Position numbers and translations under genes: made by a program. From Novosphingobium sp. 28-62-57 (GTDB lineage Bacteria; Pseudomonadota; Alphaproteobacteria; Sphingomonadales; Sphingomonadaceae), in NCBI GenBank assembly GCA_002256985.1, contig NCGO01000010.1, positions 60,470 to 124,469 of the forward strand: a DNA stretch of 64,000 nucleotides, in the 5' to 3' direction. Positions 6,852-64,000 of this stretch are shown in pieces. Numbering within the stretch: position 1 is the stretch's first letter; the number at the start of each line of letters is the position of its first letter. Under the pieces are notes generated by a model. It saw only the letters and a list, made by a program, of their open reading frames with translations, was not told the origin of the DNA and made no database searches.

Positions 6852-6939
6852 GTCATCCTGAACTTGGTTCAGGATCCATTTCTCACATCACGCGGCAGTC
6901 TGATCCGCAAGATGGATCCTGAAACAAGTTCAGGATGAC
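6852..6939. repeat. Inverted repeat (GTCATCCTGAAC...GTTCAGGATGAC)
   Basis: Two 28-base arms, 6852-6879 and 6912-6939, are near-perfect inverted copies separated by 32 bases. They lie between the convergent ends of the DUF5706 gene and the divK-like gene, and could act as a bidirectional transcription stop or a REP element. Confidence 0.85.
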
Positions 6940-6990
6940 GAATGAGCTTCGTGACCAGCGCCGATCATGAACCAACCTACAGAAAATCCA

Positions 6991-7359: not shown

Positions 7360-7370
7360 GCCTGTTTCCC

Positions 7371-7408
7371 GAACTGCACCTAGAAGCACCTGACAGCACC
7401 TAAACGCC
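7371..7408. repeat. GCACCT triple-repeat element, copy 1
   Basis: Three imperfect 10-base direct units starting GCACCT lie between the divK-like gene and the DUF3572 gene. It aligns with copy 2 at 28464-28500 over about 32 bases and with copy 3 inside a glycosyltransferase gene at 56671-56694. Confidence 0.6.
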
Positions 7409-7429
7409 CCTTATGCCCCGCGAAAGGCC

Positions 7430-7705
7430 CTGACAATCATCCGCGAGCCTTCCTCCACGCCAGATGCCGCCGCCATCGCGCTGCAAGCGCTCGGCTGGGT
7501 CCTGTCCGATGGCCCCCGCGCCGAACGCTTTCTGGGATTGACCGGCCTTAGCCCGGACGAATTGCGCGCCGGGCTGGGTGATCCCGCCATTTTGGGTGCA
7601 GTTCTCGAATTTCTCGCCAATCACGAAGCAGACCTTGTCAACGCGGCCTTCGCGCTCGACATCTCGCCCGAGGCGATCATCGCCGCCCGAAAGGAATTGT
7701 CATGA
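7430..7705 (+). CDS. DUF3572 family protein with a non-standard start
   Basis: About 91 residues. The frame is clear (ALQALGWVLSD, RFLGLTGLSPDELRAGL, FLANHEADLV, AFALDISPEA) and matches the small helical DUF3572 family of Alphaproteobacteria, of unknown function. No ATG, GTG or TTG precedes the conserved part in frame; the first plausible initiator is CTG at 7430, with AAAGG only 2 bases before it. ATC at 7436 would be better spaced. The stop overlaps the ATG of the HAD gene (ATGA), so translation of this frame probably feeds the downstream genes. Start uncertain, gene likely real. Confidence 0.65.
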   Translation: MTIIREPSSTPDAAAIALQALGWVLSDGPRAERFLGLTGLSPDELRAGLGDPAILGAVLEFLANHEADLVNAAFALDISPEAIIAARKELS

Positions 7706-8331
7706 GCCGCCCCCTGATCGTCAGCGATTGTGACGAGGTGCTGCTGCACATGGTCGCCCCCTTCCGCGATTGGCTGGGGGAGAAGGAGGGCATCACCTTC
7801 AAGATGGATAGCGCCGATTTTTCCAAGGCGATGCGCTTTGCCAAGGACGGCTCTCTGGTGCCGACCGAACAGATATGGAGCCTGCTCAACAAGTTCTTCG
7901 ATACCGAAATGTATCGCCAGCAGGCCATCGCAGGCGCAGTGGCGGGGATCAACACAGTGGCGGAAGGTGCCGATGTGGTGATCCTGACCAACCTCAACGA
8001 TCACCGCCGCGAAACCCGCGCCAAGCAACTGGCCGATGTCGGCATCAATGCCCGCGTCTTCACCAATCAGGGGCCGAAAGGCCCGGCGCTCAAGGCGATC
8101 CTCGATGAGTACAACCCTAGCCGCGCGCTGTTCATCGACGATCTGCCGCAGCACCACGATTCGGTTTCACAACTGACGCCGGACGTGATCCGCCTACACT
8201 TGTGCGGCGAACCGCTGCTTGCCCCGCACATCGATTGCGCGCATCAGGCGGGCCATGCCCATGCGCGGATTGACGATTGGGAAGCGGCACTGCCCTGGAT
8301 TATTGAACAGATTCATGGAGAAGATGCGTGA
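7702..8331 (+). CDS. HAD-superfamily phosphohydrolase
   Basis: 209 residues with the HAD catalytic motifs: motif I SDCDEV (nucleophile D9, acid D11), motif II ILTNL (about 93-97), a GPKGPALK lysine loop (motif III) and motif IV LFIDDLP (about 148-154). The helical cap lies between motifs I and II. Such enzymes hydrolyse small phosphate esters; the substrate is not identifiable. The gene starts in ATGA overlap with the DUF3572 gene and ends in GTGA overlap with the RidA gene, so the genes form a tightly coupled operon. Confidence 0.8.
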   Translation: MSRPLIVSDCDEVLLHMVAPFRDWLGEKEGITFKMDSADFSKAMRFAKDGSLVPTEQIWSLLNKFFDTEMYRQQAIAGAVAGINTVAEGADVVILTNLNDHRRETRAKQLADVGINARVFTNQGPKGPALKAILDEYNPSRALFIDDLPQHHDSVSQLTPDVIRLHLCGEPLLAPHIDCAHQAGHAHARIDDWEAALPWIIEQIHGEDA

Positions 8332-8795
8332 GCGATAGCGTTGAGGCCCGGCTGGCTGACCTTGGCCATACTTTGCCTGCGGCTGCCGCGCCGGTGGCCG
8401 CCTATGTGCCCACTGTGCTGGCAGGCGGATTGCTGCACGTGTCGGGCCAGTTGCCGTTCATTGATGGCCAGCTGGCGACGGGCCGTTTGGGTGAGGACGT
8501 GAGCCTTGAACAGGGCACCGCCGCCGCTCAGGCCTGCGCGCTGATGATCCTCGCGCAGGTCAAAGCGGCATTGGGCTCGCTCGACCGGGTGGAGCGCGTG
8601 GTAAAGCTGGGCGCGTTCATCTCTTCAACCGGCACCTTCACCGATCAGCCCAAGGTCGCCAACGGCGCGTCCGAACTGATGGTGGCCGCTTTTGGCGATG
8701 CCGGAAAACATGCGCGCAGCGCGGTGGGCGTGCCGGTGCTGCCGCTTGGCGCTGCGGTGGAAGTCGATGCTATCCTTGCCATTCGCCCTGCTTGA
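8328..8795 (+). CDS. RidA/YjgF family protein
   Basis: 155 residues of the RidA (YjgF/YER057c/UK114) family, trimeric proteins that deaminate reactive enamine/imine intermediates of PLP enzymes. Visible are LLHVSGQLPF (about 36-45), RVERVVKLGAFIS (about 85-97) and a conserved C-terminal HARSAVGVPVLPLGAAVEVDAI block containing the family arginine. This longer form with an N-terminal ADLGH-type segment resembles the cytoplasmic COG0251 subgroup common in Alphaproteobacteria. It starts with GTG in a 4-base overlap with the HAD gene. Confidence 0.85.
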   Translation: MSDSVEARLADLGHTLPAAAAPVAAYVPTVLAGGLLHVSGQLPFIDGQLATGRLGEDVSLEQGTAAAQACALMILAQVKAALGSLDRVERVVKLGAFISSTGTFTDQPKVANGASELMVAAFGDAGKHARSAVGVPVLPLGAAVEVDAILAIRPA

Positions 8796-49008: not shown

Positions 49009-49063
49009 GGCTTCGGCTTTTTCAATTTGACCTATGCAGGCTTTCAGGGAAGGCAGGACAGCC

Positions 49064-49477
49064 ATGGAACGATTGCAAGACATCATCGCCGCACACGCTG
49101 GACGTGAAGGTCCGCTCCTGCCCATCCTGCACGATGTGCAGGCCGAATACGGGCACGTTTCCGAGGATTCTGTGCGCGCGATTGCGCAGGCGCTGAACCT
49201 CAGCCGCGCCGAAGTGCATGGGGTGGTCAGCTTCTATCATGATTTCCATTCCGAACCCGATGCGAGGCCGGTGCTGAAACTGTGTCGCGCCGAGGCGTGT
49301 CAGGCGCGCGGGGTTGAGGCGCTGGCAGCGGGGCTGGCGGAACATTCGCGCGTAAAGGTGGAGGCGGTCTATTGCCTCGGCCTGTGCGCGGTCGGGCCCA
49401 ATGCGATGGTCGGCAGCAAGGTCCACGCGCGGCTCGATGCGGCCAAGCTGGTCGCACTGGTGGAGGCGCTGGCATGA
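49064..49477 (+). CDS. fdsG: NAD-dependent formate dehydrogenase gamma subunit (NuoE-like)
   Basis: 137 residues, thioredoxin-like 2Fe-2S protein related to NuoE. The four cluster cysteines lie in KLCRAEACQARG (about 72-83) and VYCLGLCAVGPN (about 108-119). Part of the soluble molybdenum formate dehydrogenase that passes electrons from formate to NAD+. AGGA precedes ATG 49064 by about 6 bases. Stop overlaps the fdsB ATG (ATGA). Confidence 0.93.
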   Translation: MERLQDIIAAHAGREGPLLPILHDVQAEYGHVSEDSVRAIAQALNLSRAEVHGVVSFYHDFHSEPDARPVLKLCRAEACQARGVEALAAGLAEHSRVKVEAVYCLGLCAVGPNAMVGSKVHARLDAAKLVALVEALA

Positions 49478-51027
49478 CGCTCAACGTTTCAAGAGTCGTG
49501 CGGATCAGTGATGACGCGCTGGCGCTGGCGTGCGAGGCGGATGAAGTAGCAGCGGCCTTTGCGGCGGCAGGCTGCACAGTGGAGCGGGTGTCCTCGTGGG
49601 GCATGCAGTGGCTGGAACCGCTGGCCGAGATTGACGGACAGGGTTTCGGCCCGCTCGATCCCGAAGACGTTGCCGATGTGCTGGCCGGGACCAGCGCCAA
49701 GGCGATTGGCCGCATCGAAGATCACCCCTTCATCGCCAAGCAACAGCGCTTCACCTTTGCGCGGGCTGGCAAGACACGGCCCCTGAGCCTTGAGGACTAC
49801 GCCGCCAACGGTGGCTGGCAAGGGATGGAAAAGGCGCGCGAAATCGGGCCCGAAGCCACCATCGCGCAAGTGACCGAATCCGGCTTGCGCGGGCGCGGCG
49901 GGGCGGGCTTCCCGGCGGGGATCAAGTGGACCACTGTCGCCAAGGCCGCAGGGTCCCAGAAATACATCGTCTGCAACGCCGACGAGGGCGACAGCGCCAC
50001 TTTTGCCGACCGCATGGTGATGGAGGGCGATCCCTTCATGCTGGTCGAAGGCATGGCGATTGCTGCACTCGCGGTGGGGGCGCACCGGGGCTATGTCTAT
50101 ATCCGCAGCGAATATCCGCATGCGATTGCCAAGATGGAAGCGGCGATCCGGGCCAGCGCGCATCTGGTCGCGCCGTTCGAATTGGAAGTGCGGGTTGGCG
50201 CGGGGGCCTATGTGTGCGGCGAGGAAACCTCGCTGCTGAACAGCCTTGAAGGCAAGCGCGGCGAAGTGCGGGCCAAGCCGCCCCTGCCCGCGCTCGAAGG
50301 CCTGTTCGGCAAGCCGACCGTGGTCAACAACGTGCTGACGCTGGCCGCTGTGCCATGGATCCTGGCCAATGGCGCGGAAGCCTATGCGCAGGTCGGCTAT
50401 GGCCGGTCCAAGGGCACGATGCCGATCCAGATTGCCGGCAATGTGAAGCACGGTGGGCTTTACGAAGTCGGCTTTGGCGTCACGCTGGGCGAGTTGGTGA
50501 TGACCGTGGGCGGTGGCACGGCATCGGGCCGCCCGGTGCGCGCGGTGCAAGTGGGCGGGCCGCTGGGGGCCTATCACACGCCCGCCGAATTCCACCTGCC
50601 GTTCGATTACGAAACCTTTGCCGCCAACGATGGCCTGATCGGCCACGCCGGGATCACGGTGTTCGATGATACCGTGGACATGAGCCGCCAGGCGCGCTTT
50701 GCGATGGAATTCTGCGCGGTGGAATCGTGCGGCAAATGCACGCCCTGCCGCATTGGCTCGACCCGCGGCGTGGAACTGATCGACCGCATCCGCGCCCGCT
50801 CCGCGCGCCAGCCCGACCGGGTCGAGGCGCTTCCGCAGATGCACAATGCGCGCAAGGTGGAGCGTTCGCTGGCCGATGAAATCACGCTGCTTGAAGACTT
50901 GTGCGAGACGATGAAGTTCGGCTCACTCTGCGCGCTGGGCGGGTTTACGCCCTATCCGGTGCTGTCGGCGCTGCGCAATTTCCCTGAGGATTTCGGGGTC
51001 GATGCAGCCAAAGAGGCTGCGGAGTGA
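49474..51027 (+). CDS. fdsB: NAD-dependent formate dehydrogenase beta subunit (NuoF-like)
   Basis: 517 residues, FMN/NADH-binding diaphorase subunit. The N-terminal 90 residues form the extra domain of FdsB. FMN/NADH loop is GLRGRGGAGFPAG (about 133-145), the family block CNADEGDSATF follows, and the 4Fe-4S ligands lie in ESCGKCTPCRIG (about 417-428) with a later Cys in GSLCALGG. Reduces NAD+ with electrons from FdsA. Confidence 0.95.
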   Translation: MTLNVSRVVRISDDALALACEADEVAAAFAAAGCTVERVSSWGMQWLEPLAEIDGQGFGPLDPEDVADVLAGTSAKAIGRIEDHPFIAKQQRFTFARAGKTRPLSLEDYAANGGWQGMEKAREIGPEATIAQVTESGLRGRGGAGFPAGIKWTTVAKAAGSQKYIVCNADEGDSATFADRMVMEGDPFMLVEGMAIAALAVGAHRGYVYIRSEYPHAIAKMEAAIRASAHLVAPFELEVRVGAGAYVCGEETSLLNSLEGKRGEVRAKPPLPALEGLFGKPTVVNNVLTLAAVPWILANGAEAYAQVGYGRSKGTMPIQIAGNVKHGGLYEVGFGVTLGELVMTVGGGTASGRPVRAVQVGGPLGAYHTPAEFHLPFDYETFAANDGLIGHAGITVFDDTVDMSRQARFAMEFCAVESCGKCTPCRIGSTRGVELIDRIRARSARQPDRVEALPQMHNARKVERSLADEITLLEDLCETMKFGSLCALGGFTPYPVLSALRNFPEDFGVDAAKEAAE

Positions 51028-51039
51028 TGTCGCTTTTTC

Positions 51040-51147
51040 CTCTTCCCCCCTCCACTTTAGGGGAGGGGCCGGGGGTGGGGGGCTTCCGGCACAGACAGTG
51101 TTTGCCGATAGCCCCCACCCCAACCCCTCCCCTGAAGAGGAGGGGCT
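51040..51147. repeat. GC-rich palindromic repeat between fdsB and mobA
   Basis: CCCCTCC.../GGAGGGG arms (about 51047-51070 and 51118-51147) plus GGGGGTGGGG/CCCCACCCC, the same sort of element as 33685-33850. It interrupts an otherwise tightly packed operon. Confidence 0.75.
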
Positions 51148-51151
51148 TTGC

Positions 51152-51685
51152 ATGATCCTCGGCGCGGTCCTTGCAGGGGGCCGGTCCACCCGCTTCGGCA
51201 GCGACAAAGCGCTGGCCGAACTCGGCGGGCGCACGTTGCTGGCCCGCGCAGTGGAGGCCTTGGCGGCGCATTGCGAGGCCGTGGTGGTCATAGGGCGCGA
51301 AACGGCCCCGGCCCCGACCATCCCCGATTGGCCCCGCGCCGATATGGGCCCACTAGGCGGGATCGCCGCCGCGCTCCATCACGCGCGCGATGCAGGCTAT
51401 GCGCAAGTGCTGACCTGTTCAGTCGATAGCGTGGGCCTTGCAGGCGACCTGCTAACCCAATTGCAACCGGCCCCCGCCTATTGTGAAAGCCAGCCGGTGA
51501 TTGGCCTCTGGCCCGCCAGCGCTTCGGCCACACTGGACGCGATGCTGACCAGCGAAGGCCGTCATTCGATGCTGGCCTTTGCGACAAGCATCGGCGCGCG
51601 GGCGGTGCGCTTTGAGACGATTCCTGATAACATCAATACACCGGCGGATTTGTTGGCCGCCGAGGAGCGATCGCATGGGCTATGA
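51152..51685 (+). CDS. mobA: Molybdenum cofactor guanylyltransferase
   Basis: 177 residues. Transfers GMP to molybdopterin to make MGD for enzymes such as FdsA. Nucleotidyltransferase motif LAGGRSTRFGSDKA (about 7-20), PLGGIAAAL (about 68-76) and metal-binding Asp in CSVDSVG are visible. It is inserted between fdsB and fdsA, and its end overlaps the fdsA start by 11 bases, so cofactor supply is tied to the enzyme. Confidence 0.9.
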   Translation: MILGAVLAGGRSTRFGSDKALAELGGRTLLARAVEALAAHCEAVVVIGRETAPAPTIPDWPRADMGPLGGIAAALHHARDAGYAQVLTCSVDSVGLAGDLLTQLQPAPAYCESQPVIGLWPASASATLDAMLTSEGRHSMLAFATSIGARAVRFETIPDNINTPADLLAAEERSHGL

Positions 51686-54533
51686 ACGTCAGGCAGATTT
51701 CGGCACTCCGGAAGTCCGCAGCGAAACAGCTGTAACCTGCTCCATCGACGGGCGCGAAGTCACCGTGCCCGCAGGCACCACCGTGATGCGCGCCGCTGCG
51801 CTGACCGGCGGGTCGATCCCCAAGCTGTGTGCGACCGACAACCTCAAACAGTTCGGATCGTGCCGCCTGTGCCTTGTTGAGATTGACGGGATGCGCGGCA
51901 CGCCTGCCAGCTGCACCACGCCGGTGGCCGATGGCATGAAGGTCCACACCCAAACGCCCAAGCTGCAGAAGCTGCGCAAGGGCGTGATGGAACTCTACAT
52001 CTCCGATCACCCATTGGATTGCCTCACCTGCAGCGCTAACAACGATTGCGAGTTGCAGGACCAGGCCGCCGCCGTGGGCCTGCGCGATGTGCGCTACGGC
52101 TATGAGGGCGAGAACCATCTTGGCGCAGCGCCAGACGTTTCCAACCCCTATTTCGATTTCGACCCAAGCAAATGCATCGCCTGTTCGCGCTGCGTGCGCG
52201 CCTGTGATGAAGTGCAAGGGACGCTGGCCCTGACCATCGAAGGGCGCGGGTTTGAGAGCAAGGTTTCAGCAGGACTTGCCTCGGACAGCTTCCTGTCGTC
52301 CGAATGCGTATCCTGCGGCGCCTGTGTCTCGGCCTGCCCGACGGCGACCTTGCAGGAAAAGGCAGTCAAGGAAATCGGCAAGCCCGAACGCTCGGTCATC
52401 ACCACGTGCGCCTATTGCGGCGTGGGCTGCACTTTCCGCGCGGAAATGCGCGGCGAGCAGGTTGTGCGCATGGTGCCGTGGAAGGACGGCAAGGCCAATC
52501 GCGGACACTCCTGCGTCAAGGGCCGCTTCGCCTGGGGCTATGCCCAGCATCAGGAGCGGGTGCTTTCGCCGATGATCCGCGAGAGCATCGACCAGCCTTG
52601 GCGCGAGGTTTCGTGGGAAGAGGCGCTGTCCTACACCGCACGCGAGATTAACCGCATCCGCGATACTTATGGCCGCAACGCGCTCGGCGGGATTGTGTCG
52701 AGCCGCTGCACCAATGAGGAGGGCTTCCTCGTCCAAAAGCTGATCCGCGCGGGCTTTGGCACCAACAATGTCGATACCTGCGCGCGGGTGTGCCATTCGC
52801 CCACCGGCTATGGATTGAAGACCACGTTCGGCACCTCGGCGGGCACGCAGGACTTTGACAGCGTTGAAGACAGCGATGTGATGCTGGTGATCGGCGCGAA
52901 CCCGACTGACGGGCACCCTGTGTTTGCCAGCCGCATGAAGCGCCGCCTGCGCAAAGGCGCAAAGCTGATCGTGATCGATCCGCGCCGCACCGATCTGGTG
53001 CGCAGCCCCCATATCGAGGCGGACTTCCACCTGCCGCTGCGCCCCGGCACCAATGTTGCGATCCTGACCGCGCTGGCCCATGTGATCGTCACCGAAGGGC
53101 TGGCCGACGAAGCTTTCATCCGCGAACGCTGCGATTGGGACGAATATCAGCATTGGGCCGAATTTGTTTCGGCAGAGCGGAATAGCCCGGAATTCCTCAG
53201 CCCTGTAATCGGCGTGGATGCCGAGGCGATTCGTGGTGCTGCGCGGCTGTTCGCCACGGGCGGCAACGGTGCCATCTACTACGGTCTTGGCGTGACCGAG
53301 CATTCGCAGGGTTCATCGACCGTCATGGCAATCGCCAATCTGGCGATGGTCACCGGCAATATCGGGCGGCGCGGTGTGGGGGTGAACCCCTTGCGCGGGC
53401 AGAACAATGTTCAGGGTGCCTGCGACATGGGCAGCTTCCCGCACGAGCTTTCCGGCTATCGCCACGTGTCCGATGCAGCCACGCGCGCGCTGTTCGAGGC
53501 CGAGTGGGGTGTGCCCATTGATCCCGAACCGGGCCTGCGCATTCCCAACATGCTCGATGCTGCCACCGATGGCGAATTCAAGGCGATCTACATTCAGGGC
53601 GAAGACATTCTGCAGTCTGACCCTGATACCAAGCATGTCATGGCAGGCCTTGCCGCGATGGAATGCGTGATCGTCCACGACCTGTTCCTGAACGAGACCG
53701 CCAACTACGCGCACGTGTTCCTGCCGGGATCGACCTTCCTTGAAAAGAACGGCACTTTCACCAACGCTGAACGCCGCATTCAGCCGGTGCGCAAAGTGAT
53801 GGAGCCGCTGAACGGGTACGAGGACTGGCAGGTCACGCAGGAACTGGCCCGCGCCGTCGGGCTGGACTGGAACTACACGCACCCGTCTGAAATCATGGAC
53901 GAAATCGCGCGGCTGACGCCTACTTTTGCGGGCGTGAACTATGCGCGGCTCGATGCCGAAGGGTCGCTGCAATGGCCGGTCAATGCGGCTGCACCCGATG
54001 GCTCGCCCATCATGCACGTTGATGGTTTCGTGCGCGGGAAAGGCAAGTTTGTGGTGACCGACTATGTGCCGACGGACGAGCGCACCGGCCCACGCTTCCC
54101 GCTGCTGCTGACGACGGGCCGCATCCTCAGCCAGTACAATGTCGGCGCGCAAACGCGGCGCACGGCCAATGTGATCTGGCACGAGGAAGACCTGCTGGAA
54201 ATCCACCCGACCGATGCGGAAAACCGGGGCCTGAAATCGGGCGACTGGGTAAAGCTCGCCAGCCGTTCGGGCGAGACGACTTTGCGCGCGACGGTGACCG
54301 ACCGCGTTGCGCCCGGCGTGGTCTATACCACGTTCCACCATCCGGCCACGCAGGCCAACGTGGTCACCACCGACTATTCGGATTGGGCCACCAATTGCCC
54401 CGAATACAAGGTGACGGCGGTGCAGATCACGCCCAGCAACGGGCCGACCGAATGGCAGGAAGACTATGACGCGCAGGCCTTGCGCTCGCGGCGGATTGCG
54501 GGCCACGAAGGCGCGATGGAGCCTGCTGAATGA
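51675..54533 (+). CDS. fdsA: NAD-dependent formate dehydrogenase alpha (catalytic) subunit
   Basis: 952 residues. N-terminal 2Fe-2S (KLCATDNLKQFGSCRLC), His/Asp-Cys 4Fe-4S (HPLDCLTCSANNDCELQ), two ferredoxin 4Fe-4S (CIACSRCVRAC, CVSCGACVSACPT), then a molybdopterin oxidoreductase with its own cluster (TCAYCGVGC). The Mo-ligand cysteine is C373 in ARVCHSPTGYGL, so this is the Cys, not selenocysteine, form. A C-terminal MGD-binding domain (LTTGRILSQYN, TTFHHPATQAN) follows. Oxidises formate to CO2 in the cytoplasm. Confidence 0.96.
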   Translation: MGYERQADFGTPEVRSETAVTCSIDGREVTVPAGTTVMRAAALTGGSIPKLCATDNLKQFGSCRLCLVEIDGMRGTPASCTTPVADGMKVHTQTPKLQKLRKGVMELYISDHPLDCLTCSANNDCELQDQAAAVGLRDVRYGYEGENHLGAAPDVSNPYFDFDPSKCIACSRCVRACDEVQGTLALTIEGRGFESKVSAGLASDSFLSSECVSCGACVSACPTATLQEKAVKEIGKPERSVITTCAYCGVGCTFRAEMRGEQVVRMVPWKDGKANRGHSCVKGRFAWGYAQHQERVLSPMIRESIDQPWREVSWEEALSYTAREINRIRDTYGRNALGGIVSSRCTNEEGFLVQKLIRAGFGTNNVDTCARVCHSPTGYGLKTTFGTSAGTQDFDSVEDSDVMLVIGANPTDGHPVFASRMKRRLRKGAKLIVIDPRRTDLVRSPHIEADFHLPLRPGTNVAILTALAHVIVTEGLADEAFIRERCDWDEYQHWAEFVSAERNSPEFLSPVIGVDAEAIRGAARLFATGGNGAIYYGLGVTEHSQGSSTVMAIANLAMVTGNIGRRGVGVNPLRGQNNVQGACDMGSFPHELSGYRHVSDAATRALFEAEWGVPIDPEPGLRIPNMLDAATDGEFKAIYIQGEDILQSDPDTKHVMAGLAAMECVIVHDLFLNETANYAHVFLPGSTFLEKNGTFTNAERRIQPVRKVMEPLNGYEDWQVTQELARAVGLDWNYTHPSEIMDEIARLTPTFAGVNYARLDAEGSLQWPVNAAAPDGSPIMHVDGFVRGKGKFVVTDYVPTDERTGPRFPLLLTTGRILSQYNVGAQTRRTANVIWHEEDLLEIHPTDAENRGLKSGDWVKLASRSGETTLRATVTDRVAPGVVYTTFHHPATQANVVTTDYSDWATNCPEYKVTAVQITPSNGPTEWQEDYDAQALRSRRIAGHEGAMEPAE

Positions 54534-54754
54534 GCGGGCAAATGGCCGAAAAGCTGGCCTATATGGTCAATCAGATCGCGCGCAATCTGGTGCACGATGC
54601 AGCGCCGGTGGCTTCGGTCGCCGATCATATCGTGGCTTTCTGGACACCGCGCATGATCGATACGTTGCTGGCCGAAGGCACCTCGGCGCTCGATCCTGTG
54701 GCGGCAGAAGCGATGGAGCGGGTGAAGGCGGCGCGGGCAGCTCATGCCGGTTGA
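54530..54754 (+). CDS. fdsD: Formate dehydrogenase delta subunit
   Basis: 74 residues with the FdsD pattern: KLAYMVNQIARNL, VADHIVAFWTPRMID, then a charged tail. A small subunit or assembly aid of Fds-type enzymes. Overlaps fdsA by four bases (ATGA) and fdhD by 11 bases. Confidence 0.92.
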   Translation: MSGQMAEKLAYMVNQIARNLVHDAAPVASVADHIVAFWTPRMIDTLLAEGTSALDPVAAEAMERVKAARAAHAG

Positions 54755-55529
54755 GGGCGCGCAGCCCTTCCCGTTCCGTGAACACTTTGCCGATGGCCGC
54801 CCCGCGCAGGGCATAACCCGCGCCTTGGCCGAAGAAGCGCCGATTGCCATCGAGATCAATGGCGTGGGCTATGCCGTGATGATGGCAACGCCGATGGACT
54901 TGCACGACTATGCGTTGGGCTTTTGCCTTTCCGAACAGCTGATTGCCTCAGCGGCTGAGTTCCTGTCCGCCGACGCCGCACCGGTTGAAGCAGGCGGCTG
55001 GATGCTGCGTGTGCAGCTTGCCGCATCGGGCGCGGGGCCGCTGCTCGAACGCGCGCGGCTCCGGCTGGCCGAGGGCAGTTGCGGGCTGTGCGGGATTGAG
55101 AGTCTGGAGCAGGTGATGCGGCCTTTGGCGCCCGTCACCGCCAAGCTTGAGGTTGAAAGCAGAGCACTTTTCCGCGCGGTTGAAGCGTTGGGCGATCATC
55201 AGGTGCTAGGGCGCGAAACGCGCGCGGCGCATGCGGCGGCACTGTGTGCACCCGATGGCACCATCCTGCTGGTCCGCGAAGATGTTGGCCGCCACAATGC
55301 CTTTGACAAGCTGCTGGGCGCAGCGGCGCGGGCCGGGCTTGATCCGGCGGCGCACTTCGTGCTGCTGACCGCGCGGTGCAGCTTTGAACTGGTGCAAAAG
55401 GCGGTGATTGCAGGCGTCCCACTGCTGGCCACGATCTCGGCCGCATCGACGCTGGCGGTGGAGCAGGCAGCAGTGCATGGGTTGCGGCTGGTCAGTCTGG
55501 CGCGGCGGGACAGCTTGCTCGAATCCTGA
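54744..55529 (+). CDS. fdhD: FdhD-type sulfurtransferase for formate dehydrogenase
   Basis: 261 residues. FdhD (FdsC) passes sulfur from IscS to the Mo-bis-MGD site to activate formate dehydrogenase. The family cysteine loop is present as GSCGLCGIES (about 112-121), with VLGRETRAAHAAAL and EDVGRHNAFDKLLG downstream. Last gene of the fds operon. Confidence 0.94.
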   Translation: MPVEGAQPFPFREHFADGRPAQGITRALAEEAPIAIEINGVGYAVMMATPMDLHDYALGFCLSEQLIASAAEFLSADAAPVEAGGWMLRVQLAASGAGPLLERARLRLAEGSCGLCGIESLEQVMRPLAPVTAKLEVESRALFRAVEALGDHQVLGRETRAAHAAALCAPDGTILLVREDVGRHNAFDKLLGAAARAGLDPAAHFVLLTARCSFELVQKAVIAGVPLLATISAASTLAVEQAAVHGLRLVSLARRDSLLES

Positions 55530-55593
55530 GCTAGGTCCGCGTCAGATCATTCGCTTGAAGCCGCTGCCCGCAAACTTGCGCTATGGGCAGCCG

Positions 55594-56334
55594 GTGGAAG
55601 AGGAACAACACGATTCGCAGCGTTATACCGACCAGGCCGGGACCGGGCACAATCGCCTGACCGCCACCGGGTTGGCGGTGGTGCTGCACTTGCTGGTGCT
55701 GTGGGGCGTGGTCCACGGTTTTGGCGGCGTGCCTGTTCTGCCCATGCTGGCAGAAGATCGGGCCACAATTCAAACCTTTGATGTGCCTCTGGAAAAACCC
55801 ACGCCCACAGCCACCCCAACCACACCCGAACCCGCTGGCGCATCCGGCGAGGAGGGTAAGAAGGCGGTGGCCAAGCCGGTTGTCGCCAAGGCCCGCGTTC
55901 CGGCCAAGCCCAAGCCTGCGCCACCGGTTGCTTCCACCGGAAACGCCGATCAATCAGGCGCTGCCGCGCAAGGGCAGGGGACCGGAGGCGGCGGCGAAGG
56001 CATGGGCACAGGCAGCGGCGCCAACGGCAGCGGATCGGGCGGCGGATTGGCGCGCAAGGCGGAGAAGATTGCAGGCGATATCCGCTCTACCCGCGATTAT
56101 CCTGCCGCCAGCCGCGATGCGCGTATCGGCAAGCGCGTGGTTATTCTCCTTACAGTTCAAGCCGATGGGCGCGTGTCGGAATGCAAGGTGTGGCGGGCAA
56201 GCGGCGTGCCCGAGGCCGATGCGATCACCTGCAAGCTGGCGCGTGAGCGATTCCGCTTTCGCCCCGCCACCGATGCTGCTGGCAATCCGGTGACTTCCAG
56301 CTATGGCTGGGAACAGCGCTGGTTCGCACCGTGA
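55594..56334 (+). CDS. TonB-like energy-transducer protein
   Basis: About 246 residues. One N-terminal membrane helix (about 30-50), a long Pro/Ala/Lys and Gly-rich periplasmic linker (about 65-155), and a C-terminal TonB fold (GKRVVILLTVQADGRVSECKV, AITCKLARERFRFRPA). It could energise TonB receptors; the nearest one is 42 kb away at 11.5 kb. The start is uncertain: GTG 55594 or TTG 55576. ExbB/ExbD genes are absent. It follows fdhD after 64 bases. Confidence 0.75.
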   Translation: MEEEQHDSQRYTDQAGTGHNRLTATGLAVVLHLLVLWGVVHGFGGVPVLPMLAEDRATIQTFDVPLEKPTPTATPTTPEPAGASGEEGKKAVAKPVVAKARVPAKPKPAPPVASTGNADQSGAAAQGQGTGGGGEGMGTGSGANGSGSGGGLARKAEKIAGDIRSTRDYPAASRDARIGKRVVILLTVQADGRVSECKVWRASGVPEADAITCKLARERFRFRPATDAAGNPVTSSYGWEQRWFAP

Positions 56335-56503: not shown

Positions 56504-58951
56504 ATGATTGCCAGCAATGATGCTTCGGGATTCGCCAATGCGGTTGCCGGTGATGTCCTGTCCTTCAGCCGCCATCCCCACGCCAGGGGTGGACGCCGCC
56601 TTGCGCTGATCGGTGGCTTTCGGCCGCGCAAATGTGGCATCGCGACTTTCACAACCGACGTCTATGTGCAGCTAGGTGCATCTAGGTGCACTTCGGAAAT
56701 CGACATGCACGTGATCGACGGTGGGCGGTCCGGGCTGGTCTATGAGGCCGTGCGCAGCGTCATCCGGGCCGATGTTGCCGAGGATTTCATCGCGGCCGCG
56801 CGCACCATCAATGCCGATGGCGTGGACGCGGTGTGGCTGCAGCACGAATATGGCATCTTCGGCGGTGAAGCCGGGGCCATGGTGCTGGAACTGGTGGACC
56901 GCGTGGCCGCGCCGCTGATCGTCACACTGCACACCGTGCTGGCCGAGCCTTCGCCCGCCCAGCGCCGGGTGCTGGAACACATCTTGCGCCGCGCATCGCG
57001 GATCATGGTCATGTCCCGGCATGCGGCATGGTTGCTGAAGGATGTGCATCAGGTTGACCCGAACCGGATTGTGGTGATCCCGCATGGCGCGCCGGACCGC
57101 CCATTTGGCCGCAGCGATGAATTCAAGGCGCGGGCCGGGCTGACCGGGCGCAAGGTGATGATGACCTTTGGCCTGCTGAGCCACGGCAAGGGGTTGGAGA
57201 CGGTGATCGAAGCGCTGCCCGCCATCGTGGCACGCCATCCCGATGCGCTCTATCGCATTGTGGGCGCAACCCATCCGAACCTGCTCGATAGTGAAGGCGA
57301 AGCCTATCGGGAGAGCCTGATAGCGCTTGCCGCCAAGCTGGGCGTGGCCGATCATGTGGAGTGGGACAACCGGTTTGTGGGCAACGATGAACTGCTCGAC
57401 CAGCTGGAAGCCTGCGATGTCTATCTGACGCCTTATCCCAACCTCCAGCAATCGACATCGGGCACGTTGAGCTATGCCGTCGCGCTGGGCAAGGCCGTGG
57501 TTTCAACGCCCTATGTTCATGCGCGCGAACTGTTGGACGATGGTGTGGGCATATTGGTGGAACCGCATTGCGGCGTGCAAATTGCCCATGCGGTGAACGG
57601 GCTGTTTGATGATCCCGGCAGATTGCACACGATGCAGCGGCGGGCGTGGGAAAAGGGGCGCGAGACGATCTGGCCACGCTTTGCCGCAGCGACACAGGCC
57701 TTGGTGGAAAGCGTGGTGGCCCGGCCAGTCCGGCCGATGCCGTTGCTGGCAACGCCGGGCTTTGCGGGCGTTACCGCGATGTCGGATGCCACCGGCATGC
57801 TGCAACATGCGATCGGCACGATCCCTGACCGGCGGCACGGCTATTGTCTGGATGACAATGTGCGCGCGCTGATGCTGATGGGTGTGGCCGATGCCGTGCC
57901 GCTGGCGGAAAGGCAGCGCTGGGCCACGGTCTATGCCGCGTTCATCCAATATGCGTGGAACCCCGATGTGGGCTTGTTCCGCAACTTCATGAATTATGAG
58001 CGCACGTGGTGCGAAAGCATCGGGTCTGAAGACAGCAATGGCCGCGCCATATGGGCGCTGGGCGGTGCAATGAACACCGCGCCTGATGACGGGATGCGGG
58101 CGTGGGCAGCGCAATGGTTCGATATCACTCTGCCATCGGTGGCAGCGCTGAAATCCCCGCGCACAATTGCGTTTACGATGCTGGGCTGCGTAGAAGCGCT
58201 CAAGGCAAATCCTGCACACGAGGATGCGCGCACGGCGCTGATGCTGGGCGGGGCCGAACTGTGCCGATTGCACGAGGCATCGCGCAGCACGGGCTGGGAT
58301 TGGTTCGAGGCGGGGCTGGGATATGACAATGCCCGGATGGCACAGGCGCTGATCGCCGGTGCGGGTACAGTGAACAACGATGAATGGCTTGAACGCGGAC
58401 TGGCCAGCCTTGCCTTTCTGGCTGGACAGCAGAAATCGGCGCAAGGCCATTTCCGCCCGGTGGGGTCAGACACGTTTGGCAAGAGTCACGAGGCCATGCC
58501 CTTTGACCAGCAACCGGTGGAGGCATGGGCCGCGGTTGAGGCAGGCGCAACAGCATGGGCGGCGACGGGCGATGAGGCTTGGCTGAATCATGCCGAGATG
58601 GCCTATCGCTGGTTTCTGGGCAGCAATGACCGGGGTGTGGTGCTGGCCGATTTTGCCAGCGGGCGGTGCCGCGACGGGGTGACGCCGCAGGGTGTGAACC
58701 TCAATTGCGGGGCGGAATCGATCCTGGCCTTCCAACTGGCCCACTATGCGCTGTGCGGTTTGCGCAAACAGACCGGATCGCAGAATGTTTTGGGCCAGAA
58801 TGTTTTGGGCCAAGGTGTTATGGGCCAGAGTGTTATGGGGCAAAGCGCGCTCGGGCAGAACACAGGGGAACCAGCCCCGGCCAAAATGCGTAGTGGTGAA
58901 CAGGCAGACGCGATGACCAAGAAAGGTGCGCACAACCTTGCAGGTGCTTGA
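56504..58951 (+). CDS. GT4 glycosyltransferase fused to a second (alpha/alpha)-barrel-like domain
   Basis: 815 residues. The N-terminal half is a GT-B family 4 transferase: RKCGIATFTTD near the start, LQHEYGIFGGEAG, a PHGAPDRP junction, and a C-lobe with YRIVGATHP and STSGTLSYAVALGKAVVSTPY. The second half (about 430-760) is all-helical with repeated WD/E-rich motifs, like (alpha/alpha)6 glycan enzymes. Five 15-base tandem repeats encode QNVLG/QSVMG-type pentapeptides (about 760-784). Residues about 56-64 come from a GCACCT repeat element. Context of GH130, guanylyltransferase and isomerase suggests mannosyl transfer from GDP-Man. GTG 56468 is an alternative start. Confidence 0.78.
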   Translation: MIASNDASGFANAVAGDVLSFSRHPHARGGRRLALIGGFRPRKCGIATFTTDVYVQLGASRCTSEIDMHVIDGGRSGLVYEAVRSVIRADVAEDFIAAARTINADGVDAVWLQHEYGIFGGEAGAMVLELVDRVAAPLIVTLHTVLAEPSPAQRRVLEHILRRASRIMVMSRHAAWLLKDVHQVDPNRIVVIPHGAPDRPFGRSDEFKARAGLTGRKVMMTFGLLSHGKGLETVIEALPAIVARHPDALYRIVGATHPNLLDSEGEAYRESLIALAAKLGVADHVEWDNRFVGNDELLDQLEACDVYLTPYPNLQQSTSGTLSYAVALGKAVVSTPYVHARELLDDGVGILVEPHCGVQIAHAVNGLFDDPGRLHTMQRRAWEKGRETIWPRFAAATQALVESVVARPVRPMPLLATPGFAGVTAMSDATGMLQHAIGTIPDRRHGYCLDDNVRALMLMGVADAVPLAERQRWATVYAAFIQYAWNPDVGLFRNFMNYERTWCESIGSEDSNGRAIWALGGAMNTAPDDGMRAWAAQWFDITLPSVAALKSPRTIAFTMLGCVEALKANPAHEDARTALMLGGAELCRLHEASRSTGWDWFEAGLGYDNARMAQALIAGAGTVNNDEWLERGLASLAFLAGQQKSAQGHFRPVGSDTFGKSHEAMPFDQQPVEAWAAVEAGATAWAATGDEAWLNHAEMAYRWFLGSNDRGVVLADFASGRCRDGVTPQGVNLNCGAESILAFQLAHYALCGLRKQTGSQNVLGQNVLGQGVMGQSVMGQSALGQNTGEPAPAKMRSGEQADAMTKKGAHNLAGA
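56671..56694. repeat. GCACCT repeat element copy 3, inside the GT4 gene
   Basis: 24 bases identical in reverse orientation to 28464-28487 (core CTAGGTGCATCTAGGTGCAC). It is translated in frame as LGASRCTS-type residues just after the conserved TTDVY segment. Confidence 0.75.
58781..58855 (+). repeat. Five 15-base tandem repeats at the 3' end of the GT4 gene
   Basis: Units at 58781, 58796, 58811, 58826 and 58841 each encode Q-x-V/A-L/M-G. The first two are identical, suggesting active slippage; copy number may vary between strains. Confidence 0.9.
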
Positions 58952-60221
58952 TCTGAGGCTTCATGCCGATCCATCGCGGGTTGTGCTTCGTCCGTTTCAT
59001 CTTGGTTGGCAGGGCATGGGCGGCGACCGTGCCCGCGCGGCCAAGCTGGTTGAGGATGTGATTGCCCTGTCTGATGAGCAGGCGGCGGGCGAATATGCTG
59101 AGGTCTTGCGCGATTTTGCCGAACGGCACTGGCAGACCGAAAAGCTGTTCGAGGATCGCTATGCCGAAATCGAAATCATGCTTGATCTGCAGGAACAGCC
59201 GATTTCGCTGTCACGCAAGCGGTTGATCGGCGCCTATTTCTGCCACGAATATACTTATGCCGCAGCCGCGCTGATGAACCCCAGCATCGTGCCGCATCCT
59301 GACCAATCCGGCATGAACGATGGCGCGGTGCGCTTTGTCATGAGCCTGCGCGCGGTGGGCGAAGGGCACATCAGTTCCATCGCCTTTCGCGAAGGCATTG
59401 CGACGGCTGACGGCAAATTCGATCTTTGGCCGCAAAGCCACTTTGCCACATCGATGTTGCCCGATGACAGCGGCATTGCCTGCAAAGGCGGGGAATGCGC
59501 GGTGACGGTGCATCGTGATCCGGACAGCACGCTTTCGAACAGCGTGATTTTCCCGATTACCGAAAAACAGGCAGGCGGGCTGGAAGACTTGCGCCTTGTC
59601 CGGTTTGATCATGGCGGCGGGGACTATGAATGGATTGGCACTTATACTGCCTATTCCGGATCGGCCATCCGTTCGGAATTGCTGCGCACCCGCGATTTCC
59701 GCAGCATCGCGCTGGAGCCGATCGAGGGCCGGGCCGGGCGCAACAAAGGCATGGCGCTGTTCCCGCAGAAGATTGACGGGCAATATTGCATGGTCGGGCG
59801 GCAGGACGGAAAGAACCTCTTTCTGCTGCGATCAGACAGTCTTGAACGATGGGACGACGAGGGCGTGCTGCTGATGGAGCCGGAGTTTCCGTGGGAATTC
59901 GTGCAGATCGGCAATTGTGGCAGCCCCATCCTGATCGATGAGGGCTGGTTGCTGCTGACACATGGGGTGGGTGCGATGCGCCGTTATGCCGTTGGCTGCG
60001 CCTTGCTTGACCGGGACGATCCATCAAAAGTGATCGCCCGCGCCAACAAACCGTTGCTCACCGCCACCGATGCAGATCGCTTCGGCTATGTGCCGAACGT
60101 GGTTTATACTTGCGGGGCCTTGTTGGTTGGGGAGCAAATACTTGTGCCCTATGGAATTTCTGACAGCGCAGTGGGTTTTGCCACGCAAACGGTGGCAGAA
60201 TTGCTGGATTCGATGCGTTAG
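58926..60221 (+). CDS. GH130-family mannoside phosphorylase/hydrolase-like protein
   Basis: 431 residues, five-bladed beta-propeller glycosidase family 130, which acts on beta-mannosides, mostly by phosphorolysis. Family blocks: RFVMSLRAVGEGHISSI, GGLEDLRLVRF (the GxEDxR motif with catalytic-site residues, about 218-228), RNKGMALFPQKIDGQY, GWLLLTHGV and VPNVVYTCGALLVGEQILVPYG. GTG 58926 or GTG 58944 could start it; the gene overlaps the GT4 gene end by 8-26 bases, so the pair is coupled. The substrate is inferred to be the glycan made by the GT4 neighbour. Confidence 0.82.
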   Translation: MRTTLQVLDLRLHADPSRVVLRPFHLGWQGMGGDRARAAKLVEDVIALSDEQAAGEYAEVLRDFAERHWQTEKLFEDRYAEIEIMLDLQEQPISLSRKRLIGAYFCHEYTYAAAALMNPSIVPHPDQSGMNDGAVRFVMSLRAVGEGHISSIAFREGIATADGKFDLWPQSHFATSMLPDDSGIACKGGECAVTVHRDPDSTLSNSVIFPITEKQAGGLEDLRLVRFDHGGGDYEWIGTYTAYSGSAIRSELLRTRDFRSIALEPIEGRAGRNKGMALFPQKIDGQYCMVGRQDGKNLFLLRSDSLERWDDEGVLLMEPEFPWEFVQIGNCGSPILIDEGWLLLTHGVGAMRRYAVGCALLDRDDPSKVIARANKPLLTATDADRFGYVPNVVYTCGALLVGEQILVPYGISDSAVGFATQTVAELLDSMR

Positions 60222-60317
60222 GGCTCCGACCCTAGTTCACCTAGCGTCCATCTTCGGCTTGTAAAAAAGCAGGACTAACCGCACAGCCAGAAAGTCACAA
60301 CTTTGTCCGGGTCGCAA

Positions 60318-61358
60318 ATGATCGAGATCGTTCCTGTTGTTCTGTGCGGTGGCAGTGGCACGCGCCTCTGGCCCCGGTCGCGCAAGCCCAAGCCCAAGCC
60401 GTTCCTGCAACTGGTGGGCGACAACACGCTGTTTACGGCCACAGTGCTGCGCTGCCCGCCGGAACAGGGATTTTCGCCCCCGATCATCGTCACAGGCGCA
60501 GCGCATCTCGATCATGTCGAGCAGCAGCTTCCCGACCGTGAAAATACCCGGATCATCGTGGAGCCCCAGGGCCGCAACACGGCGGCGGCCATTGCTCTGG
60601 CTGCGCTGTGCCTGCCTGAAGATGCGGTGATGCTGGTATGCCCAAGCGATCATCATATCGGTGATAGCGAAGCGTTTCGCACCGCGGCAAAGGAGGCGGC
60701 GCGGCTGGCCGCAGATGGTTGGCTGGTGTCGTTCGGGATTGTGCCAACTGCGCCCGAAACCGGCTTTGGCTATCTCAAGCAGGGTGAGCCGATTGCTGGA
60801 TCGGACGCATTCAAAGTGGAGCGTTTTGTTGAAAAGCCGGATCTGGCCCATGCGTTGGAGTTTTTGCAAAGCGGTCAATATGCTTGGAATGGCGGTATCT
60901 TCGGGTTCCGTGCGGGCACGTTTCTTGAAGAACTGGGGCGGCACCGCCCCTTGATCCTCGAAGCCGTGCGGGCAGCCGTGGCCGCCGGGCAAAGCGAAGG
61001 ACAGCGCTTCCTTCCCGATGCCGCAGCTTTTGCCACCGTGCCAAGCGAATCGGTGGACTATGCGGTGATGGAAAACACCGACCGCGCAGCAATGGTTCCG
61101 GCGGTGATGGCGTGGTCTGATATCGGCAATTGGCAGGCCCTGCACGAAGCGCTGGAGAGCGATGACGCAGGCAATGCGACCTCCGGCACGGCTGAACTGC
61201 GCGATTGCCGCAATGTGATGGTGATGAGCGATGGGCCGCGCGTTTCGGTGGTGGGCGCTTCGGATCTGATCGTGGTGGTGGATGGCAACGAAGTGCTGGT
61301 CTGCACCCCTGCTGGCGCACAGCATGTGGGCAAGCTTTCAGGGGCGGCCAACCAATGA
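60318..61358 (+). CDS. Mannose-1-phosphate guanylyltransferase
   Basis: 346 residues, single-domain GDP-mannose pyrophosphorylase. Nucleotide signature VVLCGGSGTRLWPRSR (about 6-21), IVEPQGRNTAAAIAL (about 81-95), CPSDHHIGD (about 112-120) and FVEKPD (about 170-175) are intact. Makes GDP-mannose from Man-1-P and GTP. It lacks the fused isomerase domain, which is supplied by the next gene in ATGA overlap. Confidence 0.92.
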   Translation: MIEIVPVVLCGGSGTRLWPRSRKPKPKPFLQLVGDNTLFTATVLRCPPEQGFSPPIIVTGAAHLDHVEQQLPDRENTRIIVEPQGRNTAAAIALAALCLPEDAVMLVCPSDHHIGDSEAFRTAAKEAARLAADGWLVSFGIVPTAPETGFGYLKQGEPIAGSDAFKVERFVEKPDLAHALEFLQSGQYAWNGGIFGFRAGTFLEELGRHRPLILEAVRAAVAAGQSEGQRFLPDAAAFATVPSESVDYAVMENTDRAAMVPAVMAWSDIGNWQALHEALESDDAGNATSGTAELRDCRNVMVMSDGPRVSVVGASDLIVVVDGNEVLVCTPAGAQHVGKLSGAANQ

Positions 61359-62161
61359 CGGCACTGGTCACGAAGATCGTGGAAAAGCCGTGGGGCAAGG
61401 ATGCGCTGCCGCCGCAGTTTGAAGTGCCGCAGGGCAAGCGCATCGGCGAAGTGTGGTTTGAACCGCCGCCTGCACTGCCCGATATTCTGGTGAAATACAT
61501 CTTCACCAGCGAGAAGCTTTCGGTGCAGGTGCATCCCAGCGACGCGCAGGCCAAGGCCTTGGGAGAAAGCGACCGGGGCAAGGAAGAGTGCTGGCTGGTG
61601 ATCGATGCCGAGCCGGACGCCGTACTGGGCATCGGGTTCACGCAGCCGCTGGATACCGAGGCGATGCGCGATTCTGCGCTGGACGGCAGCATCGAGGGTC
61701 TGATGCAATGGCATCCGGTGTCTGCAGGGGACTTTTTCTACATTCCGGCGGGCACCGTTCATGCCATCGGTGCGGGCGTGAGCCTGATCGAAATCCAGCA
61801 GGCCAGCGACATTACCTATCGCCTGTACGATTACGGCCGCCCACGTGAATTGCATCTGGAACGTGGGCTGCAAGTGGCCAAGGGCGAGACGTATGGCGGG
61901 GGCACAAAGCTTTCGTGGCCCGAGCATGGCGCGGCGGCCATTGTGCGGGGGCCCTATTTCTCCGCCGATCTGGTGAGCGGACCGACCGCCGATGGGCCTG
62001 CGCCTGTGGACCATGCGCCGTGCATCGTGATCCCCGTGGTGGGTGAGGCCATTGTCGATGGTCAGACCGTGCAGGCAGGCGAAGCGGCTTATGCCAGCGA
62101 TGCAGCAGCGGTTGTGTTTGGCGCCGGAAGCCAGTGCATTGTGGTGCGCCGGCCTGGCTAG
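61355..62161 (+). CDS. Class I mannose-6-phosphate isomerase
   Basis: 268 residues, zinc cupin enzyme converting fructose-6-P to mannose-6-P. N-terminal KPWGKD, IGEVWFE, zinc-site motifs VQVHPSDAQA (about 49-58) and IPAGTVHAIG (about 130-139), and IEIQQASDITYRLYDYGR are typical. With the guanylyltransferase it feeds GDP-mannose; a phosphomannomutase is still needed and is not in the window. Confidence 0.92.
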   Translation: MTALVTKIVEKPWGKDALPPQFEVPQGKRIGEVWFEPPPALPDILVKYIFTSEKLSVQVHPSDAQAKALGESDRGKEECWLVIDAEPDAVLGIGFTQPLDTEAMRDSALDGSIEGLMQWHPVSAGDFFYIPAGTVHAIGAGVSLIEIQQASDITYRLYDYGRPRELHLERGLQVAKGETYGGGTKLSWPEHGAAAIVRGPYFSADLVSGPTADGPAPVDHAPCIVIPVVGEAIVDGQTVQAGEAAYASDAAAVVFGAGSQCIVVRRPG

Positions 62162-62223: not shown

Positions 62224-62287
62224 CGCCAAATCGGATGAGCGCCAAATCGGATGAGCGCCAAATCAGATTAGCGCCAAATCGGATTAG
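62224..62287. repeat. Four tandem 16-base repeats after the isomerase gene
   Basis: Units at 62224, 62240, 62256 and 62272, consensus CGCCAAATCGGATKAG. Units 1 and 2 are identical. They lie in the convergent gap between the isomerase and a small exported-protein gene. Confidence 0.92.
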
Positions 62288-62342
62288 CGCTTTGACCGGA
62301 AGCGTTGATTCGCATTGCTGCCAAGCCTTTCGGATCAGGCTC

Positions 62343-62738: not shown

Positions 62739-63271
62739 AATGGGTTCCTCCCGCTTCTGTCGTGAATGCAGGCAGGGCGGCTGCGGGGCCGCCTGCATCC
62801 GCCCTTTAGGCCGCATGAGGCTGATTGCGCCATGCCTGGCGGCACAGCCGGGTGTGAGAAACTGATCCAGTTTCGAGGTTCTTCTCCCGACCGCCAAGCC
62901 GGATTTGCCGAAAGTTAGGGCGGTTGATGCCGGAATTCCGGGATCCTGCAGCCCGACATTTCCGATCAAAATCCGAAACCGATGAAGTTGCCGCGTTAAT
63001 GACAGCACCTATCGTTGACTTGTAGGCCTAGTGGAGCAAGTTGACTTGACTCAAATGCAAGGGGACATCCAAATTCGACCAAGATCAATCCAATGTGAAT
63101 TGGTGATCTAAGGGCATCAGTGACCTTCATCAATTTGAAAAGAAAAATCGATTTTTAGCTCGTGATGCGTTTTCCAATTTAATAATTGGAGAACTCGCGT
63201 GGCTATTTCCGTCCTTGAACTATTCGCATTCTGCGAAGAGTTCTTTGCGCCCAAATGCCGGGAGGTTAGTT
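62739..63271. promoter_or_regulatory. 533-base leader/promoter region with three palindromes
   Basis: Divergent region between the small exported protein and the repeat protein, with no ORF I can support. From about 63000 it is AT-rich. It holds a near-perfect operator-like palindrome GATCA..CCAAT-GTGA-ATTGGTGATC (63093-63118), a second CCAATT-TAAT-AATTGG (63174-63189) and a leader hairpin with 12-base arms (63217-63228 and 63232-63243, one mismatch), 28 bases before the repeat-protein start. A GC-rich stem (62766-62798) is near the other gene. Confidence 0.6.
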
Positions 63272-64000
63272 ATGGTAAGTTTGAAGATGAAGTTGTTGCG
63301 CAGCACGACGTTGCCCATTGCCGTGGTTCTGGCAGGACCAGCGATGGCGCAGGTGGCAACCACATCCGGAGGTAGCGATTTCACGACCGTGGGTGGTGAT
63401 GTGGTCACCAGTGGCGGCGATGTTCAAACCGGCGGTGGCAATGTCAACACCGGTACTGGCAGTATCAGTACTGGCGGTGGCAATATCAATCTTGGCGGTG
63501 GCACTCTTACCGGCAATGTAACTGGCAATGTGACGGGCAATGTTACCGGTAATGTTACCGGCAATGTTACGGGCAATGTTACGGGCAATGTTACCGGCGA
63601 CGTGACGGGCAACCTGACCGGCAATGTTTCGGGCGCGACCGGCACGTTCACGGGCGATGTTAGCGCAGACAACGTCATTGCCACTGGCGACGTTTCGGGC
63701 GCGACTGGTACGTTTACGGGCGATGTTTCGGGTGCGACCGGCACGTTCACGGGCGATGTTAGCGCAGACAACGTCGTTGCCACTGGCGACATTTCGGGTG
63801 CGACTGGTACGTTTACGGGCGATGTTTCGGGTGCCAGCGCTGTCTTTACCGGCGATCTTGGCGGTGCAACGCTCACCACAACGGGCAACGCCACGGTGGG
63901 CGGCACGCTCGGTGTCACGGGTGCGACGACCACTGCTGGCGTCACCAACACGGGCAACGTCGGCACCGACACGCTGTCGACCACCGGTCTTGCAACGCTG
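63272..64000 (+). CDS. Repetitive exported (adhesin-like) protein, 3' end outside window
   Basis: The first 243 codons are visible and open. Signal peptide (RSTTLPIAVVLAGPAMAQ), then Gly/Thr-rich repeats: TSGGDV/TGGGN units, ten tetrapeptides of TGNV type (TGNV, TGDV, TGNL), then longer units alternating SGATGTFTGDV and SADNVxATGD, and a TTTGNATVGGTL-like segment. Such beta-repeat stalks with Asn/Asp-Val turns resemble large autotransporter or trimeric adhesin passengers. GGAGG lies 7 bases before ATG 63272. Extreme repeats make it prone to length variation. Confidence 0.75.
   Translation, partial: MVSLKMKLLRSTTLPIAVVLAGPAMAQVATTSGGSDFTTVGGDVVTSGGDVQTGGGNVNTGTGSISTGGGNINLGGGTLTGNVTGNVTGNVTGNVTGNVTGNVTGNVTGDVTGNLTGNVSGATGTFTGDVSADNVIATGDVSGATGTFTGDVSGATGTFTGDVSADNVVATGDISGATGTFTGDVSGASAVFTGDLGGATLTTTGNATVGGTLGVTGATTTAGVTNTGNVGTDTLSTTGLATL

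Follow-up and report, generated by a model that had tools for sequence, protein, structure and literature searches.

Positions 56504-62161 of the window, i.e., the whole 64,000-nucleotide stretch of Novosphingobium sp. 28-62-57 DNA that we analyzed, hold four genes, all on the + strand and with open frames. They encode a GT4-type glycosyltransferase fused to a helical domain, a GH130 protein, a mannose-1-phosphate guanylyltransferase (ManC), and a ManA-like mannose-6-phosphate isomerase. The families, order, and overlaps of these genes had been proposed in an earlier reading made from the letters alone (the sequence-only reading), and open reading frames (ORFs), Pfam, and PDB matches confirm them. 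We found that the conserved unit consists of the first two genes, GT4-helical and GH130 (the pair), with ManC and ManA as optional supply genes.

The four genes and their products

The first gene (56504..58951, +) encodes the 815-amino-acid fusion, as seen from its ORF and translation, Pfam, AlphaFold, and Foldseek. Its GT4 domain (about residues 32-405; 56597..57718, +) scores above the cut-off of three GT4 Pfam models and has a GT-B fold, for which Foldseek returns MshA, GlgM, and PimA, in line with alignment and residue counts. The C-terminal helical domain (about residues 421-757; 57764..58774, +) is a homologue of YPO2471 by PDB profile search and Foldseek. A tandem repeat at 58781-58843 lies within the low-confidence C-terminal tail of the same gene. 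The second gene (58926..60221, +) encodes a long-type GH130 protein of 431 amino acids with Gln at position 327, which matches PF04041 with 104 bits against a cut-off of 26; its AlphaFold model is a five-bladed propeller with an N-terminal helical insert. Provided that GH130 begins at GTG 58926, the two genes overlap by 26 nucleotides.

The frame of ManC covers 60303-61358, so that the gene spans 60318..61358 (+) from its first ATG or starts at TTG 60303. It matches NTP_transferase with 174 bits and PDB entry 2x5s with E 2.5e-59 (best match); against TIGR01479, which describes a two-domain family, the single-domain window ManC reaches 344 bits, under the cut-off of 373. The last gene (61355..62161, +) overlaps ManC by 4 nucleotides and encodes a class I mannose-6-phosphate isomerase by Pfam, with 1qwr as best PDB match (E 3.4e-25). 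Its score of 64 bits against TIGR00218 is under the cut-off of 116, hence the label ManA-like. The nearest named relatives of the locus are from Novosphingobium.

Conservation and neighborhoods of the pair

Scanning genome contigs with the helical domain gave at least 582 confirmed relatives, the best 80 of which were analyzed. By title, these belong almost all to Sphingomonadales and come from kin genomes, so they are not independent evidence. The GT4 domain precedes the helical domain in all 80, and a GH130 match was found in 79. Since the relatives were picked by the helical domain alone, the latter count suggests that the pairing is more than chance. GH130 lies directly 3' on the same strand in 76/80 (75 loci plus L112, whose GH130 frame is broken), and the co-occurrence that the sequence-only reading proposed to check is thus present. 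GH130 is on the other strand in L079 and L080, and L133 has an odd junction: at 6409-8769, the helical match stops and GH130 continues in the same frame, either through a deletion or through an assembly fault.

ManC was matched in 9 and ManA in 11 of the 80 relatives, and the window order pair-ManC-ManA appears in only 8 (L057, L058, L067, L069, L071, L076, L077, and L078). These counts do not support the claim that the four genes form one conserved unit. Mannose supply as a theme fared better: ManC or ManA stands beside the pair in 11/80 loci, both accompany it on an S. amiense plasmid (see below), and the window ManC and ManA are the only matches to either in the genome.

In a wider sample of the phylum (398 genomes), 19 have the helical domain, and 37 have some type of GH130. 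GH130 matches above 300 bits were found in 17 genomes, all within the 19 that have the helical domain and all near it by their listed positions (Fisher p 5e-28, with kinship not corrected for); the remaining two, G168 and G176, carry the helical domain on contigs that measure 6 and 8 kb. GH130 is also present in 14 of another 16 GT4-helical stretches (L037-L052). The fusion itself varies: GT4 stands without the helical domain in L053, L054, and L197, as well as in R. wittichii, where GH130 is likewise absent from view, and the GT4 and helical domains are separate genes in G021 and Croceicoccus. A correlation of identities of 0.947 was not used, as kinship alone could produce such a value.

The pair also recurs on plasmids, including those of Rhizobiales and Fusobacteriota. 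GT4-helical matches over at least 74% of the query were found in 25 plasmid records, 24 of which have within 5 kb a GH130 that matches over at least 97% of the window GH130; in the 25th, from Deinococcus, GH130 is short and carries the annotation "hypothetical". We inspected the neighborhoods of twelve hand-picked records among the 28 plasmid GT4 records. The S. amiense plasmid reads groES-groEL-ManC-ManA-pair-phosphomannomutase. ManC-pair lies between Hsp20 genes and GrpE, DnaK, Usp, and Dps in S. sanxanigenens and S. koreensis, and with GrpE, DnaK, Usp, and Dps in S. paucimobilis, while a second S. sanxanigenens copy is near tkt, gnd, zwf, and a Crp/Fnr gene. Sinorhizobium and Devosia plasmids carry ManA-pair, and that of Rhizobium SL42 carries pair-AGE epimerase. 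In Ilyobacter (Fusobacteriota), a second GT4, a short GH130, a long GH130, and GT4-helical stand in tandem order; G164 has the same gene row, and G128 has its last three genes from the contig start. The second GT4 of G164 (L188 11863-13242), which adjoins two GH130 genes, ends in a mannose-6-phosphate isomerase domain (PF01050, E 6.8e-34).

The genome of the window holds a second GT4-helical/GH130 copy (contig C12, L006 7392-19461) of 46-47% identity, whose genes are 8.5 kb apart on opposite strands. They flank an MCRA-family gene and what looks by eye like an F1Fo-type ATPase operon; zwf and gnd lie about 14 kb beyond the copy, also by eye.

Clustering all ORFs in the 80 loci was abandoned because the result was swamped by false ORFs of high-GC DNA. 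A codon-position filter was then applied, which is rough in that it misses ManC and the TonB gene in the window. After this filter, the loci consist of the pair and apparently ordinary synteny, with labels assigned by eye. Among 22 recurrent neighbor families, no wzx/wzy-like or sugar-transport gene was recognized by eye, with no family search run; one family, in 23 of the 80 loci, resembles OPT transporters. These data bear on the idea that the pair makes a surface glycan, a glycolipid, or part of a lipopolysaccharide, with export genes encoded elsewhere. Such a role would fit GDP-mannose (guanosine diphosphate mannose) as a common feed for surface glycans, and the window ManC, as the only match in the genome, must serve any other use too. 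We nevertheless consider it improbable, given that neither export nor polymerase genes were seen by eye beside the pair in the 80 loci, albeit with rough gene calls, and that no export signal was found by eye in the GT4-helical and GH130 proteins.

In the sequence preceding the GT4 gene, which was scanned in 81 loci, FNR/FixK-like sites occur in 2 (0.05 expected), TTGCAA in 21 (4.6 expected, the window among them), loose EcfG-like sites in 10 (0.5 expected), and CIRCE and sigma32 -10 sites in 0. The expected values come from plain base shuffling, and the stretches are partly coding, so these counts carry no conclusion. No sigma-70-like promoter was found, and terminator-like sites number three, against a shuffle mean of 5.0.

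Just 5' of the pair, at 55408-56334, the window encodes a TonB C-terminal domain protein (PF03544), and L057 and L058 show, by eye, a similar end upstream. Further 5' (49034-55529), a set of formate dehydrogenase genes was recognized by eye, together with one MobA-like and one FdhD-like gene. Right after ManA, a tandem repeat with a unit of 16 bases runs for 4.2 copies (62224-62290), and an ORF of short repeated units (VTGN and longer) at 63215-64000 runs past the window end.

Active sites and the helical domain

The usual GT4 donor site, as in MshA and PimA, contains an EX7E motif and a donor-phosphate Arg. In the window protein, Q316-X7-Y324 replaces this motif, and the Arg of MshA corresponds to Leu224; Lys229 is retained. 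Over 80 rows (L133 excluded), position 316 is Gln in all and position 324 is Tyr in 78 and Phe in 2, where the register was set by hand without gaps and HMMER places gaps there, making position 316 less sure. The changed donor-site residues are shared by the GT4-helical proteins of Ilyobacter and Deinococcus, and the usual motif is kept, by eye, in the second GT4 of Ilyobacter, Deinococcus, and G164. Such strict conservation of altered residues suggests a working, specialized site, and the alignment describes the window protein as GT4-like with a changed donor site.

For GH130, the closest solved folds by Foldseek are Teth514_1788 (E 3.3e-22) and Teth514_1789, with the model nearest to 1,2-beta-oligomannan phosphorylase. 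Residues were counted over 79 rows, with L133 included and L112 (broken frame) and L092 (no GH130) excluded; in addition, two alignments, thinned by hand and without L133, combine the window with 57 and with 43 of the 80 loci. The catalytic-type Asp221 and Glu220 are kept in 78/79 rows (the Asp221 exception is the odd L133 row), the presumed phosphate site retains R292 and H346, and D294 is invariant in long-type GH130. Position 327 is Gln in all 79 rows and in 18/19 further long-type rows (Lys in L055). The five aligned characterized enzymes (Teth514_1788, Teth514_1789, Lin0857, Uhgb_MS, and TM1225) have Lys or Arg there, as do eight of nine other GH130 rows, with Glu in L201a; L201_7326 has Leu. 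A single protein of the same locus (L201 5362-7290) contains two tandem GH130 domains.

According to the relevant part of PMC4599007, GH130 enzymes hold phosphate by three basic residues, and acids at these positions give hydrolases. Alignment suggests that position 327 is one of the phosphate-binding residues. If so, the window GH130 would lack the three-basic-residue site, leaving phosphorolysis unproven, and due to Gln327 in place of Lys/Arg we do not class it as a phosphorylase. For beta-1,2-mannoside specificity, the reference residue is Lys199 of BT3780 (PMC4599007). K274 of the window GH130 aligns with Lys of four beta-1,2-type enzymes (Arg in TM1225) and would fit a beta-1,2 enzyme, without amounting to proof. 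The NCBIfam model of BT3780 gave nothing over cut-off in the window GH130 or in 14 controls.

Together, these residues bear on the cycle that the sequence-only reading had proposed, in which GDP-mannose is the donor for a mannan made by GT4, GH130 splits those bonds again by phosphorolysis, and ManC recycles the mannose 1-phosphate that this releases. The gene order, the retained R292 and H346, and a precedent in Thermoanaerobacter, where GH130 is beside a guanylyltransferase and a GT4 gene in the cluster described in PMC4264767, are all compatible with it. Yet the bond chemistry conflicts. GT4 enzymes are retaining, and the title of the MshA structure in the Foldseek list describes MshA as such. 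With GDP-alpha-mannose as donor, a retaining GT4 should therefore form alpha bonds. GH130 phosphorylases, as characterized in the sections of PMC8950772 on this family, are inverting and act on beta-mannosides. Since GH130 is not known to cut alpha bonds, and given Gln327, we regard this simple build-and-phosphorolyse cycle as quite improbable, and the claim that GT4 builds what GH130 phosphorolyses is not supported.

The helical domain was modeled as part of the full-length protein. It forms eleven helices in the AlphaFold model (residues 449-757), with block means of confidence mostly above 90 and dips at 591-610 and 651-670, so the extra domain noticed earlier is real. No Pfam or NCBIfam family fits it. 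Its sole significant PDB-sequence match is 7tem (YPO2471; E 2.5e-12, next 0.14), which Foldseek returns again among the top 50 rows (E 3.1e-12); a literature search by the name YPO2471 found no paper. We found relatives of YPO2471 in two plasmid records. In S. hankookensis, the relative (310 aligned columns with the helical domain, alignment probability 98.3%) is beside LacI, an ATP-binding cassette (ABC) importer, GH130, and DUF1861. In Gemmatirosa, the family match adjoins two GH130 matches near ABC transporter genes. Separately, the DUF1861 protein of S. hankookensis (PF08950, L230 12895-13839) immediately follows GH130 and the ABC importer. Residues common to a six-row alignment include, among others, D428, H435, D450, D451, R454, R514, N609, N708, D709, D724, N734, and E738; Deinococcus deviates at position 709.

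The two relatives are few cases, yet they are independent of the GT4 context, and their position beside GH130 and importer genes suggests that the helical domain is likely a glycan-active enzyme. Thus, the earlier idea of a glycan enzyme gains plausibility through the YPO2471 family, and the putative (alpha/alpha)-barrel has eleven helices, with 7tem as its sole homologue.

The same importer-GH130 loci also invite the view that the window genes form a catabolic locus for imported mannosides. GH130 members are mostly catabolic in the account that PMC8950772 gives of them, and the long-type GH130 of L198 is in a locus that resembles sugar uptake by eye. At the window locus, no importer was recognized by eye, the transferase and ManC are biosynthetic, and a different GH130 of the genome (L003) retains Arg and adjoins an ORF that looks receptor-like by eye. 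Hence, we find a catabolic role very improbable here.

Proposed function and known systems

Building on these results, we infer substrates, reaction directions, product, location, and role for the pair. Our leading reading, held tentatively and with slightly less than even confidence, is that the core is a cytoplasmic module for the synthesis and processing of a glycan or glycoside that contains mannose. ManA would convert fructose 6-phosphate to mannose 6-phosphate, a phosphohexomutase encoded elsewhere in the genome (four family matches) would provide the step to mannose 1-phosphate, and ManC would turn the latter into GDP-mannose as activated mannose supply. The GT4 domain may then make an alpha-linked part or primer, GH130 may add or remove beta-mannosyl units, and the helical domain may trim or release the glycan, with the three acting on separate bonds. 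The product would probably be a reserve or protectant for stress.

Several observations weigh against this proposal. GDP-mannose as the GT4 donor is a guess in view of the unusual donor motif, and a search for GDP-mannose users, covering GDP-mannose dehydratase (GMD) alone, gave two matches far under the GMD cut-off. ManC adjoins the pair in only 8 and ManA in only 11 of the 80 loci. No GH130 is in view in L092 (one of the 80) or in the stretches L049 and L051. Conversely, of 39 plasmid records in which the GH130 match spans at least 80% of the query, 15 are without GT4-helical (e.g., S. sp. MM-1), although two of them are from Croceicoccus, with its separate GT4 and helical genes. Long-type GH130s without a GT4 match in view (L198 and L199), one of them in the uptake-like locus, lower our confidence slightly. 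As for stress, the stress-gene neighborhoods were found for the pair elsewhere and not in the window, where no such gene was recognized by eye, and the pairs on the N. resinovorum and N. pentaromativorans plasmids adjoin neither mannose nor stress genes.

A more specific version of the cytoplasmic module is a bacterial mannose reserve or protectant that a GT4 with a rebuilt donor site builds and the fused barrel trims, with a non-phosphorolytic GH130 as beta-mannosyl transferase, the whole set being spread as a stress module, plasmids included, across bacteria that range from Fusobacteriota to alphaproteobacteria. We consider this version unlikely in full. GH130 is a family known mainly as catabolic. 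A widely shared pair that joins a GH130 with an altered phosphate site to a transferase with an altered donor site, and that repeatedly lies near GDP-mannose and stress genes, would indicate an unrecognized intracellular mannose glycan in bacteria. The top listings of the open-licence literature returned no paper on the GT4-helical/GH130 pair.

YPO2471 (PDB 7tem) is homologous across most of the window helical domain. It is a stand-alone protein named as exported, and the N-terminus of its relative in S. hankookensis looks signal-like by eye, whereas the window domain is fused to GT4. A glycan-active role for the latter would suggest a role for the YPO2471 family, whose structure is solved and for which our analysis found no function.

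The Thermoanaerobacter Teth514_1788/1789 cluster, in the portion of PMC4264767 that presents it, likewise places GH130s next to genes for GT4 and mannose-1-phosphate guanylyltransferase. The cluster differs in having ABC importer genes and a GH5 gene, being interpreted there as salvage, and its enzymes have Arg/Lys at the equivalent of position 327, where the window GH130 has Gln.

Finally, GT108 of Leishmania mannogen, as outlined in parts of PMC8950772 and PMC8476585, is a five-bladed propeller related to GH130 and serves an intracellular mannose reserve. Its structure 6q4x appears in the Foldseek list of the window GH130 (E 1.2e-6), with no sequence match to GT108 among the matches listed. 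The two systems differ in organization: GT108 is described in those parts as acting alone on beta-1,2-mannan, whereas the window GH130 is coupled to a separate GT4.

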